Positions 2,100 to 24,255 of a DNA stretch of 28,214 nt are shown piece after piece. The stretch covers positions 1-28,214 of IMG/VR virus record IMGVR_UViG_3300042907_000851, one strand, 5' to 3'. Each line of letters starts with the position of its first letter. Position 1 is the first letter of the stretch. This DNA is from a virus. Made by a program: the position numbers and the translations under genes. The notes under the pieces were generated by a model. It worked only from the letters and a program-made list of their open reading frames with translations. It searched no databases and was not told where the DNA came from.

Positions 2100-5000
2100 T
2101 CAAAGCAACGACAAGAGGTTAGACAAGCTTACGCCACCAGCTATAAACTGTAGCAAACGATTTCTAGTTGCATCAACTGTTGTGGTGACAGTAGTAGTAT
2201 TACTTGCGGCAGTCAAACCTATTGTTCCTGAAACTCTTTGTGCTTCGGTCAAACTTTGTTGCGCTGTTGCTGCAACTGAGCTTTGAACTGTTTGAGTGTC
2301 TCCTGTACTCCAAGAAGTAGTAGTTGTTGATGGTCCAATAATTGGCGTTGAGCTTACTAATCTACCCCAAGAATCATAAACTAGACTTGATGCAGTTCCT
2401 GTGATTACCGTGGTTCTAGAAACGTCTGTTCTAGTTCTCCAATCACCCCATAGAGTGCCGAAAGGACTTGCAGCGAATTCTCTCCATGGTGCAGTCATAT
2501 CAACTGTCATATTAACTGACGCTGTTTGGTTGGTGTCAATGTTATTATCATATGAAGGTATTAATTGCGCCTGACCGTTCCAAGCGTATGCAACTAATGC
2601 AGAAGAACGATATTTGGTTGCAAATCTTTGTGATATGAATGACACAGAATCATACTGAAGTGTTATCAATCTACCAGTTTGAACAACATTTGAAGAAGCT
2701 GCAGAATTGAAACGAATATTAACAATTTCTCTTGTGATTCTTGGTCTTGCTACACCAATATCAGAATCAATTGCAATAGCAAATTCTGGATTAGATACAT
2801 CACTTAGACCGAAATCAGTAAACGGATCAACGAAGATACCATTTTTGAATCTATCAAGACCATAACTATCTGTTACAGTTAGATCCTTGGCCTTTTTTTC
2901 TAATAGAGAAAGCTGTGCATAATACTCTAGATTTGTAATTCTGTTATCTAGGGTGCCAATATCCTTCATGGTATATCTGCGATTAGTTACAAGGCTACTG
3001 GTTACAGCAGTAGAAGTATCTCTAATTAGATTTACAGCGTTCTGATTGATTGACTGGAATTCATCAATCTGGTCACCAGAAAGAGAAGGATAAGCAGGAA
3101 CATTTAATACAGCCAAAGCCATTGCATTTTCTGGATACAACGGAGTCTGTGGGCTGATACTTGATACGCCTTCCTTTACTTTCAAAGTGTTTTCTGGTGT
3201 CATTAACAACAGATCTTTTCTTGGCAAATACATGGTATAGTCAGCTTCTAGATTCTTACCATATGTTGGGAAATTCAACCCATCAATTGGTATATTAAGA
3301 GAAACTGTTGAAGAAGGATTCAAAGTTGCATAAGAAACCGCAGTATTAATCAATGCAGCGTTTGATAGGTTTGTGATAATACCAGTATCGTTAGCTGTGA
3401 TAGCACAAGGTGTTCTGAAATCTACAACATCTCTTAGATAAATTCTAGAACCAGTAGAAGCCACATAAAGCGGAATGTCTTTAGTTTGGATGGCGCTTGT
3501 ATTAGCTGTATTAGCATCGTCAACGGGATAAGATTCAACAGTGAAGAATCCAACGCCAGCCGAAGTGTTAGCAGCAAAATAATCAAGTTCGACCAATAGA
3601 TATGGGTAGCTAGACTGACTATAACTAGATTTAGCGTAAATATAAGCTAGACCGTAATGAGTGTCTTGCTGACCTGTATCATAACTGAAATTGGATGTTA
3701 GATCTACAGCAATGATACCATTAGCGTTTGTAAAGCTAGTAGTTGCTGAACCGTAAATTTTACGAACTCTATGAACGTCGCTGTAACCAAGGCACCATGG
3801 GCCCTTTGGATTTGTTGCAGTGTTTATCTTTACGTATCTATTTTTACGTATGGCCTTTGAGGCTGGGTTAGCAACAGTTCTCTGCATATTGAACGAAACT
3901 TCTACGCCTACTGTGGCGCTTGGGAATTCGCCAGAGTAAACATTGAAAGAAGTTGTATTTGTTACAGTAACGTATGCGTTTGGACCAACAGTTGATCTTG
4001 CAATCTGAAGAACTTTGCCCTTTGGATATCTCTTGTAATAAGTTTGACCAGCAGCATTTGCACCGAATGCAGCATCAACGTTAAGGAATGTAGCATTAGT
4101 TACACTTGTTACAGTTCTTACATCACTGGCACCAACTCTAATATTATCTCCTGGCTTGAAGTTTGTAGTAAAGGTAGTGCTAGAACCAACAACGTTTGTT
4201 GAGGTATTATATACTGTTACATTACCAGTTAGCGCAGAAGAATCTGCATTAGCTGAGAATGTAACAACAATTTCAGAAGCAGAAGAATCGGATAGAGTTG
4301 TATTTGAACCGTATGTTAATATGTCAGAACCACCAGCCTGAGAACCAGGAGCTCTAACAACAATCAGACCAGTACTCAACATTTGACATGAAGAGTTTGT
4401 GGTTCTATATGTGTAATCAGTGTTGATATTATTTCCAGCGTCTCTTAGGTTCTTAATACCAGGAACGCCGAAACTATAAAGTTGCATCTTATTCTGAGAA
4501 TCAACAGTGCCATTAGAGACAACGTCGCCAACAGCCTTATTAGTTCCATCGTAATATATTGATTTGATCTGATTGATGCTGTATCCGCTCAATAGCTGAA
4601 CATCAAATACATGTAACAAATATTCTGCAGAAGCAGAACCAACAACGCCTGCATTATATGTGAAACATCTAGCTTTAGCTGTCCCAATGTATGTTCCAGC
4701 TGGTGATACTGAAGAATAGGTTCTGTTTGTGACAGCTTGTTGAGCGGCAGAATATAATTTTACTGTCTGTGCTTTGTCTGTCAAAAATGTTCCTGCAACT
4801 TCTTTAAGAGCAAAGAAGCTACCATAATTGAAACTTATTATCTGTGATTTGTTAACGGTAGTGTCAACACCACGGCGCATATTAATATGAGCAGATTTTA
4901 ATAGCTCAACTCTGTTACCCTGAGCATATCCTATGCCGGGGCTTACTCTGGCAAGAACATTATTAGAACTTGATGGAGCAATTTCGTTTCCAAGAACTGA

Positions 5001-14013: not shown

Positions 14014-14832
14014 TTAACCTTGCTCAAACTTAATAGATGCAGATTTAATTGTTATGGTGCCGCTTTCTATAACAATACTAGAACCACCAACCTTTATAGT
14101 TACCTTAGATCCAGCATCTATTGTAATATCAGTTGCTGCCTTAACAAAAGCATCTGAAGCGGAATTAATGGTAGCTGTTGAACCAGTCTGCACCATCATA
14201 GTGCTACCTGTTTCTATTTTACCTTTTTCGCTAACATAGTTGTCGTAATTGGCTCCAGCATACAACGAAACGTCTTTCTGGAACACTTCGATCTTTTTCT
14301 TTTCACCCATAGATACATAATCGCCTTCAGTGGCGTTAAATCTATCACCCTTTACTCTATGACGATTGGTTCCTGCATCAACATTACAATGAACTGGCGC
14401 TGAACCTTGCTGAACACCGTTGTATCTGGAATCTCCAGACATCTTAAATTCTTTTTTACCAGTTCCTCTGTAATAGTTTTTACCAGCAACATGACCAAAG
14501 TCATCGCCATGTTCCATTCTACCAGTCTTTTCGCCATTGTGATCAAAATGACCATCTACTTGAACTGACTTACCACCGCCAACATAACCTCTATGTTCGC
14601 CGGGATTTACTGAAGTATGAATTTCTTTTTTATCTTGATCGTGGTGCGTTATTTGATAACTACCGCTTGGGGTCAATGATTCTGAATACGACTTTTCATG
14701 TTCATCTGGATTGCGGTATGTTAGATGATGTCCTCCAAGAGCGTCCCATTCGCCATGAACGTAACCATACTTTGGTTCAATGTCATTCTCATCTAATGCT
14801 GATTTTGGAACTTTTTTGTTATGATCTACCAT
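14014..14832 (-). CDS. Tail spike needle protein (gp5 C-terminal/VgrG-like beta helix)
   Basis: The 272 residues end in a tandem beta-helix: ATDITIDAGSKVTIKVGG, then SSIVIESGTITIKSASIKFE. This is the pattern of the triple-stranded needle of T4 gp5 and VgrG. The N-terminal half is hydrophilic and His/Gly/Asp-rich (YGYVHGEWDALGGHH, HRGYVGGGKSVQVDG), with repeated short strands compatible with trimeric intertwining. No lysozyme catalytic domain is visible. In T4 this needle is the C-terminal part of gp5 after the OB fold and lysozyme; here it is a free gene. Its ATG overlaps the stop of the preceding gene (TAATG), implying coupled translation, and the PAAR tip follows. Confidence 0.8.
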   Translation of the reverse strand: MVDHNKKVPKSALDENDIEPKYGYVHGEWDALGGHHLTYRNPDEHEKSYSESLTPSGSYQITHHDQDKKEIHTSVNPGEHRGYVGGGKSVQVDGHFDHNGEKTGRMEHGDDFGHVAGKNYYRGTGKKEFKMSGDSRYNGVQQGSAPVHCNVDAGTNRHRVKGDRFNATEGDYVSMGEKKKIEVFQKDVSLYAGANYDNYVSEKGKIETGSTMMVQTGSTATINSASDAFVKAATDITIDAGSKVTIKVGGSSIVIESGTITIKSASIKFEQG

Positions 14833-16301
14833 TAACTTACACCTAACAATGTTAACATCTGAGAAATATTTTTCTTGCCTGTTTCAGTTACATCGCCACC
14901 AGCATAATATCCGCCGCCAGAAGCTCCTGGGAAACCACTACCAGCTCCACCACCACCGCCGCCGGATCCGCCACCAAAACCACCAAAACTACCGAGTAGA
15001 TTACCACCACCCATGTTACCAAGCACTCCTCCAATACCTCCACCACCAGAACCAAATCCGCTCATGATATTTGAAATGCCACCCATATTACCTAATGAAC
15101 CTAGAGCGCCGCCGACGCCACCACCCATGGCTTGATTACCCATTTCAAACAACTGATTATTAAAAGTCATATCTTTAGTATATTGATTCAATGTCTTTTG
15201 TATATCGCCTTGGTTCAATACAGATTTTGGTAATTGCTGAGAAGTAAGCATTTGCATAAGAGACTGTAACTGTCCTCCCATGCTCCCGCCACTACTGTTG
15301 TTTTGATTAGCGTTATTGCCCATATTGTTGTTTGTTATATTATCTTCAACGTTTACTACTTGTTTAGCTAATATATAATTCAATATTTCTATTGTTAATA
15401 TTGGCTGCGGATTCTGAACCCAAATATATGGCTTCAGATCAGTAGCTATTTCAATTTCAGACAAAGAATAAGTTTCTTCGTTTGGCGTGGTATACACAAA
15501 TGTTCCAGGTTCTCTTCTGGTATAAACTTTTTCGGTTTTGTCTGGCGACAACCATTCTATATAACCTGGATATGGGTCAAGAGCAATTTGATAATACTGT
15601 TTAATATAACCGTCAGGAACTTCGCTTGTTGCAATCAAAGGACTTGGAACAATATCGCCATAAATTGTTTCATCGTATACCGATACAGGAATATTCAATG
15701 GTCCATAATATAATGCAACTTTAATTAGATTGGCTATAGAATTCTTAACAATTTCTTGAAATCTGTCATCGACTTCATCAATACCGCCATTGTCCAAAAG
15801 GGTTGTGAAAACTTCTATTACTCTTTCGAACCCATACTTCAATGATAATAAAGCCAAAGCGCCAGTAAACGAATCATTTATTACAGTTATAATACCTGCA
15901 GGCACTGGATCGGTGCTATCAAGAATACCTTGTGGTGTGTTTTGACCTGAACCGCCAGAACCCATACCACCCATCATTCCACTGCCCATACCAAGGATAT
16001 TAGTCATCTGCATCAACTGAGGATACATTTGCGGTAGAACTTGAGCCTTACCTTGAGGATCAATTTGTTTCATTAATTGCGGTAAGTCAGTTTGACCTTT
16101 TTCAGCAGCTGCAGAAGTTGGCTTGTCTGCATTAGGTGCAAACTTATCTCTAGCGTCTGATAAACTTTTTGATTCGTCTGGTTTTACTGCCGGTGAATCT
16201 GCATATTTCACCTCAGCATTAATCTTTGGTTTTTGACCGCCTAATGTTTGATGATTAGGACTGACCGTTTTATTGTTATTTTCAAAAGCCTTTTCTGCCA
16301 T
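14832..16301 (-). CDS. Gly-rich structural protein between gp5 OB domain and needle, function unknown
   Basis: I do not recognise this 489-residue protein with certainty. It has a disordered, charged N-terminus (1-80), a Met/Gly-rich patch (GMGSGMMGGMGSGGSG, about 105-120) and a compact middle (about 125-320) containing ALLSLKYGFERVIEVF helices and strands with YIEWLSPDKTEKVYTRR. A Gln/Asn-rich linker follows, then about 100 residues that are mostly glycine with Ser, Met and Phe, ending in a short helix (KKNISQMLTLLGV). It overlaps both neighbours by one base in TAATG junctions, so it is translated with the OB-domain and needle proteins. This suggests a hub or spike component, perhaps filling the space where T4 gp5 has its lysozyme domain; that is inference. 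Confidence 0.55.
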   Translation of the reverse strand: MAEKAFENNNKTVSPNHQTLGGQKPKINAEVKYADSPAVKPDESKSLSDARDKFAPNADKPTSAAAEKGQTDLPQLMKQIDPQGKAQVLPQMYPQLMQMTNILGMGSGMMGGMGSGGSGQNTPQGILDSTDPVPAGIITVINDSFTGALALLSLKYGFERVIEVFTTLLDNGGIDEVDDRFQEIVKNSIANLIKVALYYGPLNIPVSVYDETIYGDIVPSPLIATSEVPDGYIKQYYQIALDPYPGYIEWLSPDKTEKVYTRREPGTFVYTTPNEETYSLSEIEIATDLKPYIWVQNPQPILTIEILNYILAKQVVNVEDNITNNNMGNNANQNNSSGGSMGGQLQSLMQMLTSQQLPKSVLNQGDIQKTLNQYTKDMTFNNQLFEMGNQAMGGGVGGALGSLGNMGGISNIMSGFGSGGGGIGGVLGNMGGGNLLGSFGGFGGGSGGGGGGAGSGFPGASGGGYYAGGDVTETGKKNISQMLTLLGVS

Positions 16302-16708
16302 TAATTACTTTTCCTTGTCCATGCAGGATTATCAATACCAGGTTTTCTAATTTTACCACCGGAATTTCTTTGGGCTTCTTGACTTTGTTGACCAACACCG
16401 CCATTACTATCATCATGACCTTCTGGCATATCACCACGTGCTAATGACCCAAGAACAATAGGATATTGCATAGCAGTATCATGAGGTAAATATGTAACCA
16501 ACACTCTAGAACCAACTTTAAGACCAGAAGGCGAAACACCAATTCTTGATGTTGCAGCCGATGTTACTGGTTGAACAACCATAGCCCATGGAAGTTCTTC
16601 GTCTTTAATTGATTGTTCATCGTTATGTTCGTTATATATTCTAACCTTAACACGTCCAGATCTAGTCGGATCTTCTTCAAAATTTCTAACTTCAGCAATA
16701 TAAAACAT
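16301..16708 (-). CDS. gp5: gp5 N-terminal OB-fold hub protein (split gp5)
   Basis: The 135-residue product matches the OB-fold at the start of T4 gp5: a DPTRSGRVKVRIYNEH strand set, then LPWAMVVQPVTSAATSRIG (T4 has LPWMSVIQPITSAAMSGIG by memory) and VGSRVLVTYLPHD, with PIVLGSLARGD closing the barrel. In T4 this domain sits on the gp27 trimer and is continued by lysozyme and needle domains. Here it ends after a short Gly/Gln-rich tail and the needle is a separate gene. It overlaps gp27 upstream and the Gly-rich protein downstream by one base each. Confidence 0.85.
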   Translation of the reverse strand: MFYIAEVRNFEEDPTRSGRVKVRIYNEHNDEQSIKDEELPWAMVVQPVTSAATSRIGVSPSGLKVGSRVLVTYLPHDTAMQYPIVLGSLARGDMPEGHDDSNGGVGQQSQEAQRNSGGKIRKPGIDNPAWTRKSN

Positions 16709-20671: not shown

Positions 20672-21337
20672 ATGCCATTTAACATAAACGCTTATCAAAC
20701 GAATTTAAGGGACTTTGGTTATCTAGATAATAACTCATTTTCTGTTCTGATACAGACCCCAAGAATTTTGTCTAACGCTGTTCTTAGTAACCAAGGCACA
20801 CCAACAGCGATATATAAAATCGCCAAAAATATGGAATTCAGAATAGACCAGGTTAGAGCTCCTGGTATTTCTATTATGACGGCTGACATAAACCGTTTCG
20901 GTATTGGCCCAACTCAGAAAATGCCAATAAACGCCCAATTCCAAGAAGTAAGTTTATCAATGCTTGGCGATCATTATTGCGAATTCTGGCAATATTGGTA
21001 TCAGTGGACCAGAGCAATTTTCCAATTTAATGGATCATCAACAAACAATACCGCCCCGAACTATACTGCAGAATACAAAGAAAATTATGCAACAACCATG
21101 TGTATTTTCATATATGATCATTATGGCAATATAGTCCAAAAGATTAATCTATTTGACGCCTTTCCGACAGCTATTAGAGAGTTTCCTCTTTCTTGGGGCG
21201 ATTCGAATCTTATGAAAATCAACGTTTCAATTGCTTACACTGAATACACTATAGAAAATTCTACCGTGCAAGCAACCAACTCTCAACAAAGAACCAATCT
21301 AAGAACAGGAACTGCGAGAGACACTATAACAAATTAA
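20672..21337 (+). CDS. Tail-tube-fold baseplate protein (gp19/gp54-like)
   Basis: The 221-residue product has the features of a tail-tube-like protein: an N-terminal strand region (NNSFSVLIQTPRILSNAVLS), the FRIDQVRAPGISIMTADINR loop, and the strand SLSMLGDHYCEFWQYWYQW typical of the tube-fold helix-loop. A C-terminal IREFPLSWGDSNLMKINVSI and AYTEYTIENS close the fold, as in gp19 homologues. It may be the tube initiator gp54, given that the gp48-like cap is nearby; a minor tube subunit is the alternative. AGGA lies 6 bases before the ATG and the gene follows the gp2-like gene by 8 bases. It precedes gp26. Confidence 0.6.
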   Translation: MPFNINAYQTNLRDFGYLDNNSFSVLIQTPRILSNAVLSNQGTPTAIYKIAKNMEFRIDQVRAPGISIMTADINRFGIGPTQKMPINAQFQEVSLSMLGDHYCEFWQYWYQWTRAIFQFNGSSTNNTAPNYTAEYKENYATTMCIFIYDHYGNIVQKINLFDAFPTAIREFPLSWGDSNLMKINVSIAYTEYTIENSTVQATNSQQRTNLRTGTARDTITN

Positions 21338-21352
21338 TGATGGAGTATATTA

Positions 21353-22063
21353 ATGTCATTACCGAAAATTGACTACCCTGTATATAAGGTGAATGTTCCT
21401 TCTTTGAAAAAGGACTATCAGTTTAGACCCTTTTTGGTCAAAGAAGAAAAGTTATTATTAATGGCAAAGGAAAGCGATAACCAAGCTGATATCCTTTCTG
21501 CTATTAAACAGGTAGTTAATAACTGTTCCGTTGATCCAAAACTAGATGTCGGTAAACTAGCTTTATTTGACCTTGAGTTTATCTTTTTAAAACTCCGCTC
21601 GGTTTCTGTAGACAACGTGGTTAAAGTTTCTTATAGAGATTCAGAGGATAAGAAGGTTTACGACTTTGACATCAATCTAGACGAAGTTAAGGTCAATTAT
21701 CCAAAGAAGTTGGATAACAAGATAAAAATAACGCCACAGTCAGGTATTATAATGAAATACCCTTCGGCGTCGCTATATGATGATACTGATTTCTTGAATC
21801 TAGAAAAAGATTATATGTTTGAACTTATCATTAGATGTATTGATTCCATTTATTTTGAAGATCAGATTTATGAATGCAAAGATTATAAGAGAGAAGAACT
21901 GAACGAGTTCCTGGAAAACCTGAATATCAAGACCTTTGAACAGGTCCAGAACTTCCTGTTGAATGTTCCTAGAATGGAATACAAGATAATCTATCAAAAT
22001 GAACTTGGGAACGATCGTGAAATTGTATTGTCTTCGTTAAACGATTTTTTTACGTGGCGCTGA
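21353..22063 (+). CDS. gp26: Baseplate hub/tail assembly protein gp26 (T4 baseplate family)
   Basis: The 236-residue protein fits the T4 gp26 family (T4 gp26 is 208). It begins with LPKIDYPVYKVNVPSLKKDY, FRPFLVKEEKLLLMAKES and ILSAIKQVVNNCSVDPKLDV, followed by LALFDLEFIFLKLRSVSVDN, the conserved core, then a beta region and a helical C-terminus (REELNEFLENLNIKTFEQV, LNVPRMEYKI). GGAG lies 8 bases upstream of the ATG. The TGA stop (22061-22063) lies beyond a T-heptamer at 22045-22051 that could divert some ribosomes into the -1 frame, giving a predicted 294-residue product (233 gp26 residues plus 61). In T4, gp26 is annotated as a hub subunit; its position before the tape measure here suggests an assembly-chaperone role. 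Confidence 0.85.
   Translation: MSLPKIDYPVYKVNVPSLKKDYQFRPFLVKEEKLLLMAKESDNQADILSAIKQVVNNCSVDPKLDVGKLALFDLEFIFLKLRSVSVDNVVKVSYRDSEDKKVYDFDINLDEVKVNYPKKLDNKIKITPQSGIIMKYPSASLYDDTDFLNLEKDYMFELIIRCIDSIYFEDQIYECKDYKREELNEFLENLNIKTFEQVQNFLLNVPRMEYKIIYQNELGNDREIVLSSLNDFFTWR
22045..22051 (+). promoter_or_regulatory. Candidate -1 ribosomal frameshift site (T TTT TTT)
   Basis: Seven consecutive T residues are read in the gp26 frame as GA[T] TTT TTT ACG, exactly the X XXY YYZ register. A -1 slip re-pairs both tRNAs perfectly and continues as TAC GTG GCG into the 22054-22236 frame, which is open from 22021 after a TGA at 22018-22020. The site is in the only 43-base window where both frames are open. 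Confidence 0.65.
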
Positions 22064-22236
22064 GTCATAGTACATTATCTAATTATTTTGCTACTATATT
22101 CTCTTTGGCTCAGCACCATAAATATTCAATTAGTGAAATAGAATCTATGATACCCTTTGAAAGAGATATATACGTTCAAATGCTCGTCAACTACTTAAAA
22201 GAAGTAGAAGAAGCTAAAAAGAAAAGCAGCGGATAA
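22054..22236 (+). CDS. Second tail-assembly chaperone frame (likely made as a gp26 frameshift extension)
   Basis: The frame codes for 60 residues from GTG at 22054, ending MIPFERDIYVQMLVNYLKEV and a Lys/Glu tail. Helical content and the ERDIYVQML segment resemble short ORFs that follow gp26 in T4-like phages, in the place of T4 gene 51. No Shine-Dalgarno sequence precedes the GTG: the upstream bases are a T-tract. In-frame alternatives upstream are ATT codons only. This, together with the overlap with gp26, makes expression by -1 frameshift more likely than independent initiation. It is separated from the tape measure by 3 bases. Confidence 0.65.
   Translation: MALSHSTLSNYFATIFSLAQHHKYSISEIESMIPFERDIYVQMLVNYLKEVEEAKKKSSG
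22055..22118 (+). promoter_or_regulatory. Possible RNA stem downstream of the frameshift site
   Basis: TGGCGCTGAG (22055-22064) can pair with CTCAGCACCA (22109-22118): nine of ten pairs are Watson-Crick with one C-A mismatch, extendable by a G-U at each end. The loop is 44 bases and AT-rich. The inner seven pairs begin 7 bases after the heptamer, within the usual spacer range for a frameshift stimulator. Confidence 0.35.
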
Positions 22237-22239
22237 CAA

Positions 22240-24255
22240 ATGGCCATAGAAGCAGAAGAATTAGCGGTAATATCTAGAAGCATTAGAAATGCTGGAGTTG
22301 AAACTGCAGGCGAATTCCGTCAAGCAGCCAATGCCAGCAACGCTAATCTCAGCAGAATAGTCAAAGATATTTCTACAACCTTCAAAGCACAGAGAGAAGA
22401 TATCGCAGATCTTCATAATGTGCTTGAGGAAATGGTTTCTGAGTCTCAGCAAACTGGTAACAAAATTGACAGTCTAAATTCTCTATTCAGAGAGTCTTTA
22501 GAAATACAAAATTCTATGCGCACCGAGATGAGCAATGTTACCAAAAACACTCGTATTCTCAGCGGTGACATTGAATCTTTAAACCGTAACATTATGAATA
22601 ATACTAGCAGTGGGTTGTTGGGAAGTATTTCCAATCTAAGCACAGATTTTGCTAAGCAACTAGCATTAATGGGAGTTGGAGCTGCTGTAGCTGGTGGTGG
22701 AATGACAGCTCTGGGTGCTATGGGCGGTGGAGGTCTAGGTAGACAAGAAGTAAAAGAAGGCAGCGGTTCTGGATACGAACAATCTGGATTAAGCAGACAA
22801 AATGTGGCAGACATGATCAGAAAGTCTGCCATACAACGTGGAATTGATCCTGAAACAGCTGTTGGTATCGCTAAATCAGAAGGTTTGAATACATATAGAT
22901 CATCGGCTCCAGGCAAAAAATGGGGTATGGAAAGAGAACCTTCATATGGACCATTCCAATTATTGGTTGGTAAAGGCACTGGTGGCCCAGAAGGTCTTGG
23001 TGATAGGTTTAAAGCTGCAACAGGTATTGACCCAGCAACAGATCGATCAGCTGCTTCTCTTCAGAAACAAATAGATTTTGCTCTTGATGAAGCAAAGAAA
23101 AAAGGTTGGGGTCAATGGTATGGTCGTAAGACTGCTGGGATTGGAGAGTTTCAAGGAATAAACGTTGATACTTCTAAAATGAAGGCTCCTGAAATATCAA
23201 CCACTCCACAAACAACTACGCCAACAACAACCCCATCTGCTACTCCAGTGTCAGCGCCTGAAGCAATTCCTTCTGCTAATGATCCTCGAACAGAACGTAT
23301 AGGCAAAGAAGGCGGTCATGGTCCAGTAAGTGGCGCTGCTCATGAGGATCATAAACATGGCGAACAAGTAAGTGCTTCATTGCCTTCTGGTGATGTTGTT
23401 GCTCTTGGTCATGCTCTAGAAAAAATGGGAATGCGTATCTCTGAACATCCGCAGTTCGGCGGCGTTAAACCTGTTCATAAAGGTAAGGCGCATTATGAAG
23501 GCAGAGCAATTGATATCAATTTTGGTGAAGGTAACGTTGAAGCAAAGGATCCTGTTATGGGAGCCAAGTTTGATCAACTAGCCGAACAATTGACTAGACT
23601 AGGATATAAAGTTTATTGGAGAGAAAGCGGACCATATGCAGCTGCTGGTCATAATAATCATCTACATGCTGAAATTCCAAAAGGTGGGGCGCAGTCTGTT
23701 CCAGACACATATCAAATAGCAGGTTCGCCAGAACAAAGAGCGATGCAAGGAGCAACTCCAGCCGCTGGATCTACTGCATCTACTGCTCCGCCTGCAGCTA
23801 CACCTATGGCGGCTGAACCAGTAGCACAAGCGCCTATATCTCCCGGAATTGCAGCCCCACCAGCTGGCGCAAATATGATGGGTCAAATGATGGGTATGAT
23901 ACCAGGAATGATGGGTGGAGGAATTGGTGGTATTGCAGGAATGTTACTACCAATGATTGCCTCAACTATACAATCAGAATTAGTATCAACACCATCGATG
24001 CCAGCATTGAACGCACAAGCATTAAACCAAGCTGCAGTTACTTCGCAAGCTACTGAACAAACAGTTCAAGAAGCTCAAGTTTCTTCGCACACCCCACAAG
24101 TCAATGCAGAACCAAATAGAATGCATAATTCAAATCAAGCTGGATTTGCTTATAATATGCCAGGAGATATTGAGTGGCCAGATTGGGCTGGTATGCTTGG
24201 TGGCAATCATTACGAAGAAATGAATTTGTTTAAACCTAGAATGTCTAGAGGATAA
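22240..24255 (+). CDS. Tape measure/hub protein with lysozyme-like and M15 peptidase-like domains
   Basis: The 671-residue protein lies directly after the assembly genes, the expected tape-measure position (T4 gp29 is 590). Residues 1-130 are predicted coiled coil. A hydrophobic Ala/Gly/Met segment follows (about 143-165). Residues 183-290 look like a lytic transglycosylase/lysozyme: DMIRKSAIQRGIDPETAVGI, AKSEGL with candidate catalytic E214, and a YGPFQLL turn. A Thr/Pro linker leads to residues 385-480, an M15/VanY-like peptidase with H418-x2-G421-x-A423-x-D425 and H474-x-H476. A Pro/Ala/Gln region and a Met/Gly-rich hydrophobic stretch (about 543-578) complete the protein. Such domains cut peptidoglycan locally during DNA entry. 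The SD is weak. Assignment as tape measure is by position and architecture. Confidence 0.72.
   Translation: MAIEAEELAVISRSIRNAGVETAGEFRQAANASNANLSRIVKDISTTFKAQREDIADLHNVLEEMVSESQQTGNKIDSLNSLFRESLEIQNSMRTEMSNVTKNTRILSGDIESLNRNIMNNTSSGLLGSISNLSTDFAKQLALMGVGAAVAGGGMTALGAMGGGGLGRQEVKEGSGSGYEQSGLSRQNVADMIRKSAIQRGIDPETAVGIAKSEGLNTYRSSAPGKKWGMEREPSYGPFQLLVGKGTGGPEGLGDRFKAATGIDPATDRSAASLQKQIDFALDEAKKKGWGQWYGRKTAGIGEFQGINVDTSKMKAPEISTTPQTTTPTTTPSATPVSAPEAIPSANDPRTERIGKEGGHGPVSGAAHEDHKHGEQVSASLPSGDVVALGHALEKMGMRISEHPQFGGVKPVHKGKAHYEGRAIDINFGEGNVEAKDPVMGAKFDQLAEQLTRLGYKVYWRESGPYAAAGHNNHLHAEIPKGGAQSVPDTYQIAGSPEQRAMQGATPAAGSTASTAPPAATPMAAEPVAQAPISPGIAAPPAGANMMGQMMGMIPGMMGGGIGGIAGMLLPMIASTIQSELVSTPSMPALNAQALNQAAVTSQATEQTVQEAQVSSHTPQVNAEPNRMHNSNQAGFAYNMPGDIEWPDWAGMLGGNHYEEMNLFKPRMSRG

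Follow-up and report, generated by a model that had tools for sequence, protein, structure and literature searches.

The G/GT pair of phage lambda is the model case of frameshifting in tail assembly chaperones. In lambda (gpG/gpGT) and in P2 (E/E'), a short chaperone and a rare long form made by -1 fusion are encoded between the tail tube and tape measure genes. A 2016 review (PMC5009743) gives chaperone frameshifting of the lambda type as widely conserved 'except T4'. The title of Vladimirov et al. (2022) names chaperone genes of T4-like phages. Citing that work, PRFect (PMC10274946) states that in some T4-like phages the pair consists of a short gene and a fused one, and a 2025 paper (PMC12846349) cites it for poly-T signals, which suggests that at least some poly-T sites are reported there. 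Text citing it in PMC9603447, PMC12859696 and PMC12671138 contributed no further detail. PMC12846349 also describes a chaperone frameshift in the Vandenendeviridae and Andersonviridae (phage Adele), with GTTTTT as its signal; we set this case beside gp26 by description only. In the passages of PMC2993671 consulted, gp26 appears only as a list entry.

Within the titles and abstract openings of the open-access literature, we found no frameshift described at gp26/gp51 of cyanophages or of the clade studied here. Nor, in the same mainly open-access material, did we find a stem, a Shine-Dalgarno (SD)-like element or near-universal conservation described at gp26/gp51. The initial annotation had supposed that frameshifting was unreported for the gp26 region of T4-like phages. 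This stood for cyanophages and for the present clade at the level of those titles and abstract openings, but not for the kind of gene, which was already known, the 2022 paper naming T4-like chaperone genes in its title. What the present analysis adds for gp26/gp51 is the breadth of conservation, a downstream stem, an upstream SD-like element and the difference from T4.

We analyzed a 28,214-nt stretch of viral DNA (hereafter the window), and consider, with a probability of roughly 0.9, that its gp26 and the -1 frame behind it form a single recoded gene, in which programmed -1 frameshifting of the lambda G/GT type would give a short and a long tail chaperone. The gp26 gene, encoding the short form of this predicted chaperone, lies at 21353-22063 (+ strand; 236 aa). 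Its product is a member of family PF12322 (E 1e-53; 182.7 bits against a curated cut-off of 24.5) and matches phrog_150 (E 8.9e-57). The slippery heptamer T TTT TTT is at 22045-22051 (+) in the 0/-1 register. Both slippery codons are TTT in the gp26 frame (22046-48 and 22049-51), so a tandem -1 slip would leave both tRNA-Phe paired with TTT again. Open from 22021 to 22236, the -1 frame shares 43 nt with gp26; from 22051 to 22236 (+) it provides an extension of 61 codons and a stop, giving a predicted fusion of 294 aa (233 + 61) with the junction LNDFF-YVALSH. Our recomputed coordinates agreed with the initial annotation on the heptamer, its register and the overlap, and reproduced its 294-residue product and junction.

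The extension belongs to a real protein family, phrog_634 ('baseplate hub assembly catalyst', E 6.9e-25), which is that of gp51, and it also matches the C-terminus of the family to which gp26 belongs, phrog_150 (E 1.9e-4). The window does not have the T4-type gp51 arrangement, as the C-terminal domain sits in the -1 frame and not in one open frame with a gp26 part; PF12322 was found at one place in the record, a 28-kb fragment. In comparison with lambda, whose site is G GGA AAG, the window has T TTT TTT, and gp26 is longer than gpG; the two are likened by layout, not by sequence. Runs of this kind are not rare in a window of 37% GC (T7 has four start positions and A7 three on the + strand). 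The heptamer alone is therefore little proof, and its conservation is the proper test.

The surroundings form a T4-like structural module, with genes for baseplate wedge, tail tube cap, head closure, DNA end protector, single-strand DNA binding protein and helicase loader. The next gene upstream of gp26 (20672-21337, +) encodes a tail tube-type protein (phrog_45 'tail tube', E 4.3e-21; PF23849, E 1.1e-10), the presumed partner of the extension. Downstream, the open reading frame at 22240-24255 (+; 671 aa) starts 3 nt after the extension and probably encodes the tape measure protein, the presumed client. The spacing is as the initial annotation had it, while the identity as tape measure protein rests on position and on weak matches to phrog_9483 ('tail length tape measure protein', E 0.0014) and phrog_35997 (unknown, E 0.00048). 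With this identity, gp26 is placed between a tail tube-type gene and a probable tape measure gene, as in the lambda G/GT type.

Inspection by eye showed murein hydrolase-like stretches in the probable tape measure protein (lytic transglycosylase-like, then peptidase-like); two segments of it gave no Pfam match above the cut-off. In relatives, the gene at this place is annotated as peptidase, chitinase or murein transglycosylase. Elsewhere in the window, a 135-aa open reading frame (16301-16708, - strand) matched phrog_430 ('baseplate hub subunit and tail lysozyme') in its N-terminal part only (21-129 of 868), as a gp5-like protein lacking the lysozyme part. Within the baseplate cluster, the products of 14014-14832 (-) and 14832-16301 (-), of 272 and 489 aa, gave no PHROG match at E 0.001.

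We compared an AlphaFold model of the window gp26 (mean pLDDT 89.6) with solved structures. Its first 96 residues aligned with 3fgx (Z 8.1), the HK97 tail assembly chaperone 2ob9 (Z 7.4, rmsd 4.0 over 84 residues), YqbN 3klu (Z 6.8) and the PICI protein 5ir0 (Z 4.8), four matches set apart from the next (Z 2.8). We take 3fgx and 3klu to be chaperone-like proteins of PBSX-type elements, although their PDB titles are silent on that. Foldseek alone ranked 2ob9 third with a weak E of 1.3; except for 2ob9 and 3fgx, its PDB matches (all with E >0.7) were treated as noise. A gp26 profile searched against the sequences of solved structures found no credible relative (best E 0.01, to a protein of unrelated name). 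Structure comparison of a T4-type gp51 model (pLDDT 82.3) returned no chaperone, which we regard as uninformative. From the model, the N-terminal half of gp26 has a tentative resemblance to the HK97 tail assembly chaperone.

This resemblance bears on the possibility that gp26 and gp51 are parts of the baseplate hub and not tail assembly chaperones, even if they are fused. Database names ('baseplate hub', 'hub assembly catalyst') point that way, and the Z of 7.4 to 2ob9 falls under the level trusted by the structure-comparison tool itself. Nevertheless, the top four structural matches stand clear of the remainder and include a named chaperone, gp26 is flanked by tail tube-type and probable tape measure genes, and there is a published assignment of T4-like chaperone genes (Vladimirov et al., 2022, by its title). 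We therefore hold a purely hub function to be unlikely. As a separate observation, 5ir0, which the gp26 model resembles over residues 6-92, is ORF19 of a Vibrio cholerae PICI-like element; PICI-like satellites may thus carry a tail-chaperone-like protein.

Conservation was assessed in 264 loci, comprising 241 IMG/VR loci fetched by their gp26 proteins only and 23 named phages, mostly chosen from lists of gp51-domain matches, so that presence of the domain was selected in the latter and presence of the heptamer was not. In 258 of the 264, T TTT TTN occurred in the 0/-1 register near the gp26 end, and the -1 frame stayed open for 120 nt or more beyond the gp26 stop. A further two had the heptamer on a cut contig, and four ran off the contig before the gp26 stop. 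The heptamer was thus found at every locus with a readable gp26 end (260/260, none having been dropped for its absence), although these counts come from related sequences and are not independent trials. Among 198 distinct sequences the site was TTTTTTC in 130, TTTTTTT in 65 and TTTTTTG in 3. All 23 named phages had it in register, and they represent six or more groups, among them Kyanoviridae, Eurybiavirus, Emdodecavirus, Pootjesviridae and, within the Straboviridae, Schizotequatrovirus and Ceceduovirus. Identity to the window gp26 falls to 23% among relatives in one aligned sample. Given this conservation in register with an open -1 frame, the heptamer is not a chance occurrence, and the lack of heptamer conservation that the initial annotation had named as a refutation was not observed. 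Two of the three Pootjesviridae records have T TTT TTG, a Phe/Leu tRNA change in the A site.

Codon usage was examined in 197 aligned gp26 sequences, at the 18 columns in which one amino acid, Met and Trp excepted, was conserved in 90% or more. Among these, only the column of the first slippery Phe had an invariant codon (TTT in 197/197). This set, like that used for the SD-like element below, consists of loci already scored as heptamer-positive, and is not circular only because every readable locus had the heptamer. Two further conserved Phe columns, away from the site, had TTT in 72/196 and 92/186 sequences and TTC in the rest, and Phe codons elsewhere in gp26 were 65% TTT. The codon preceding the Phe pair ended in T in 198/198 sequences, compared with 70% T for two-fold NNY codons elsewhere. 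Constraint at wobble positions, which the initial annotation had named as a check, was therefore seen at the slippery site against mixed TTT and TTC at other conserved Phe residues.

Downstream of the heptamer the window can form a stem of nine pairs with a 38-nt loop, its 5' arm at 22059-22067 (+), 7 nt after the heptamer, and its 3' arm at 22106-22114 (+) (minimum free energy -15.0 kcal/mol; z -2.6 for the 60-nt stretch). This stem had gone unnoticed in the initial annotation. In 48 distinct sites from the clade of the window, 94.0% of cells were paired and five of the nine pairs had changed on both sides (28 cells); none of 500 shuffles reached the observed values for pairing and both-side change. 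One covariation measure, further pair types, showed no excess over shuffles (156/500). When the partner was slid by 1-3 columns, pairing was at most 40.5%. RNAalifold independently recovered seven of the nine pairs; the consensus energy was small (-3.24 kcal/mol). Lengthening the window stem by TGG/CCA was rejected, this pairing not being present in other members when the alignment was inspected by eye.

Also by eye, other lineages have a different stem at about the same place. Stability after the heptamer was compared with control windows using dinucleotide shuffles; the mean z was -3.11 (control -0.09) in 33 clusters of the window type and -1.94 (control -0.33) in 63 clusters of other lineages. 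Mononucleotide shuffles of all 198 sequences gave a mean z of -2.48 downstream against -0.41 in the control. The three Pootjesviridae records had no obvious strong stem downstream by eye, and their stimulator may differ.

An SD-like tetramer (GAGG, GGAG or AGGA) was present within 30 nt upstream of the heptamer in 117/198 sequences, with 81 occurrences exactly 10 nt and 35 occurrences 11 nt before it. The Glu codon of an EGL motif, which builds the tetramer, was GAG or GAA in a ratio of 73:19, against 1022:2391 for Glu codons elsewhere in gp26. The tetramer was absent from 81/198 sequences, including one identical to that of the window. The dnaX signal of E. coli has the same three-part layout (an SD-like element about 10 nt upstream, a slippery heptamer and a downstream stem-loop), but with an A AAA AAG site and in an unrelated gene; the SD-like part is what the window and those 81 relatives lack.

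In the window, where the initial annotation had seen only a GTG, the listed open reading frame of the -1 frame begins at GTG 22054. Across 152 distinct tails (58-75 residues, counted from FF), the open -1 frame, read as far as 12 codons beyond the heptamer, contained no ATG, GTG or TTG in 70, an ATG in just 53, and only a GTG or TTG in 29 more. The gp51 domain had tblastn matches in 571 phage records (E up to 0.1), and in the records that we opened it was a separate gene, shortened, or without annotation. It is unannotated in S-CAM7, metaG-MbCM1 and ACG-2014d, and annotated from about 50 nt after the gp26 stop in S-RIM8 and S-RIM50. Missing or late annotation in these five records is what would be expected if gp51 had no start of its own. 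Some GenBank records name T4-type gp26 or gp51 'tape measure protein assembly chaperone'.

It might be argued that gp51 is a separate gene with a translationally coupled start inside or just after gp26 (GTG 22054 here, ATG in some cyanophages), and that the heptamer is incidental. The 82 tails with a potential start would allow this, and gp51 has been annotated with a start of its own in S-PM2, P-SSM2 and others. In S-PM2, however, GGAGG precedes the annotated ATG by more than 20 nt and the heptamer by about 10 nt, and the 70 tails devoid of all three starts are difficult to accommodate. Furthermore, an incidental heptamer would not stay fixed at a synonymous position in 197/197 sequences, nor precede a covarying stem, and in T4 the homologous domain forms the C-terminus of a full-length fusion (see below). 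Independent initiation is accordingly very improbable as an account of the locus, and many gp51-domain annotations may need revision. Still less credible is slippage of RNA polymerase on the T run as the source of the fusion, since although the window site has seven T, 130 of 198 relatives have TTTTTTC and three TTTTTTG, runs of six where polymerase slippage usually needs longer ones, and the fixed codon phase, covarying stem and SD-like element fit a ribosomal signal.

The frameshift reading was also favored by comparison with T4. Both T4 gp26 and T4 gp51 match PF12322, and the C-terminus of gp51 is phrog_634, so the T4 proteins belong to the same families as the window pair. T4 gp51 (249 aa) aligned to residues 13-280 of the 282 of phrog_150, and T4 gp26 to 14-235 only. 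In profile comparisons, the gp26 end maps to residue 202 of T4-type gp51 (E 8.2e-14) and the -1 domain to residues 200-245 (E 1.3e-7), which makes T4-type gp51 collinear with the predicted frameshift product. T4 had two full-length phrog_150 matches, whilst each of the other 11 phage records searched had one; a separate C-terminal piece was found in six of these 11.

In T4, the short (26) and long (51) forms are two genes on opposite strands, and gene 26 has no heptamer. None of ten T4-type gp26 genes (those readable among 11 loci, four of the ten being at least 98% identical to T4) had an in-register XXXYYYZ heptamer in the last 75 nt. Seven of the ten keep both Phe codons as TTC TTT, T4 itself reading GAG TTC TTT. 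The idea that gp26 and its partner at the gp51 position are the T4-type equivalent of G/GT is thus supported for the window and its relatives, but not for T4 itself, which shows no sign of frameshifting and has a short gene 26 with a separate long gene 51. The presence of the heptamer at all 260 other readable loci, against 0/10 in the T4 type, suggests that, among T4-like phages, it is T4 and its close relatives that depart from the rule. In the T4 record (3770-3890, -), gene 25 starts behind gene 26 at TAATGG, so that the -1 frame is open there as well (398 nt); it encodes gp25, not the gp51 domain.

Taken together, comparison across relatives (the conserved site and register, the synonymous codons, the stem, the domain in the -1 frame and the collinearity with T4-type gp51), with the modelled fold of gp26, supports the frameshift, the fusion to a second domain and the analogy to G/GT that the initial annotation had proposed. 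From it we infer the occurrence and efficiency of frameshifting, the binding partners and the direction of evolution. Most ribosomes would stop at the gp26 stop, giving the abundant short form of 236 aa. A minority would pause at the downstream stem, both tRNA-Phe would shift by -1 on T TTT TTT, and these ribosomes would add 61 codons to give the rare 294-aa long form. If the pair works like lambda gpG/gpGT, the gp26 part would coat the tape measure protein encoded by the next gene, the extension would recruit tail tube subunits, and both chaperone forms would depart before the tail is complete. In T4, genes 26 (short) and 51 (long) would yield equivalent products, for which the simplest route would be a duplication that made the frameshift unnecessary.

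We lean towards an ancestral origin, in T4-like myoviruses, for the three-part signal (an SD-like GAGG in many lineages, T TTT TTY, and a lineage-specific covarying stem). The T4 branch would then have swapped recoding for duplication, with gp26 keeping the short form without the heptamer and gp51 being the hard-wired former frameshift product. The signal is small enough for a reporter test in E. coli, and natural frameshifted and fused versions could be compared biochemically. If true, this history would be a rare case in which the replacement of a recoding event by a duplicated gene can be traced.
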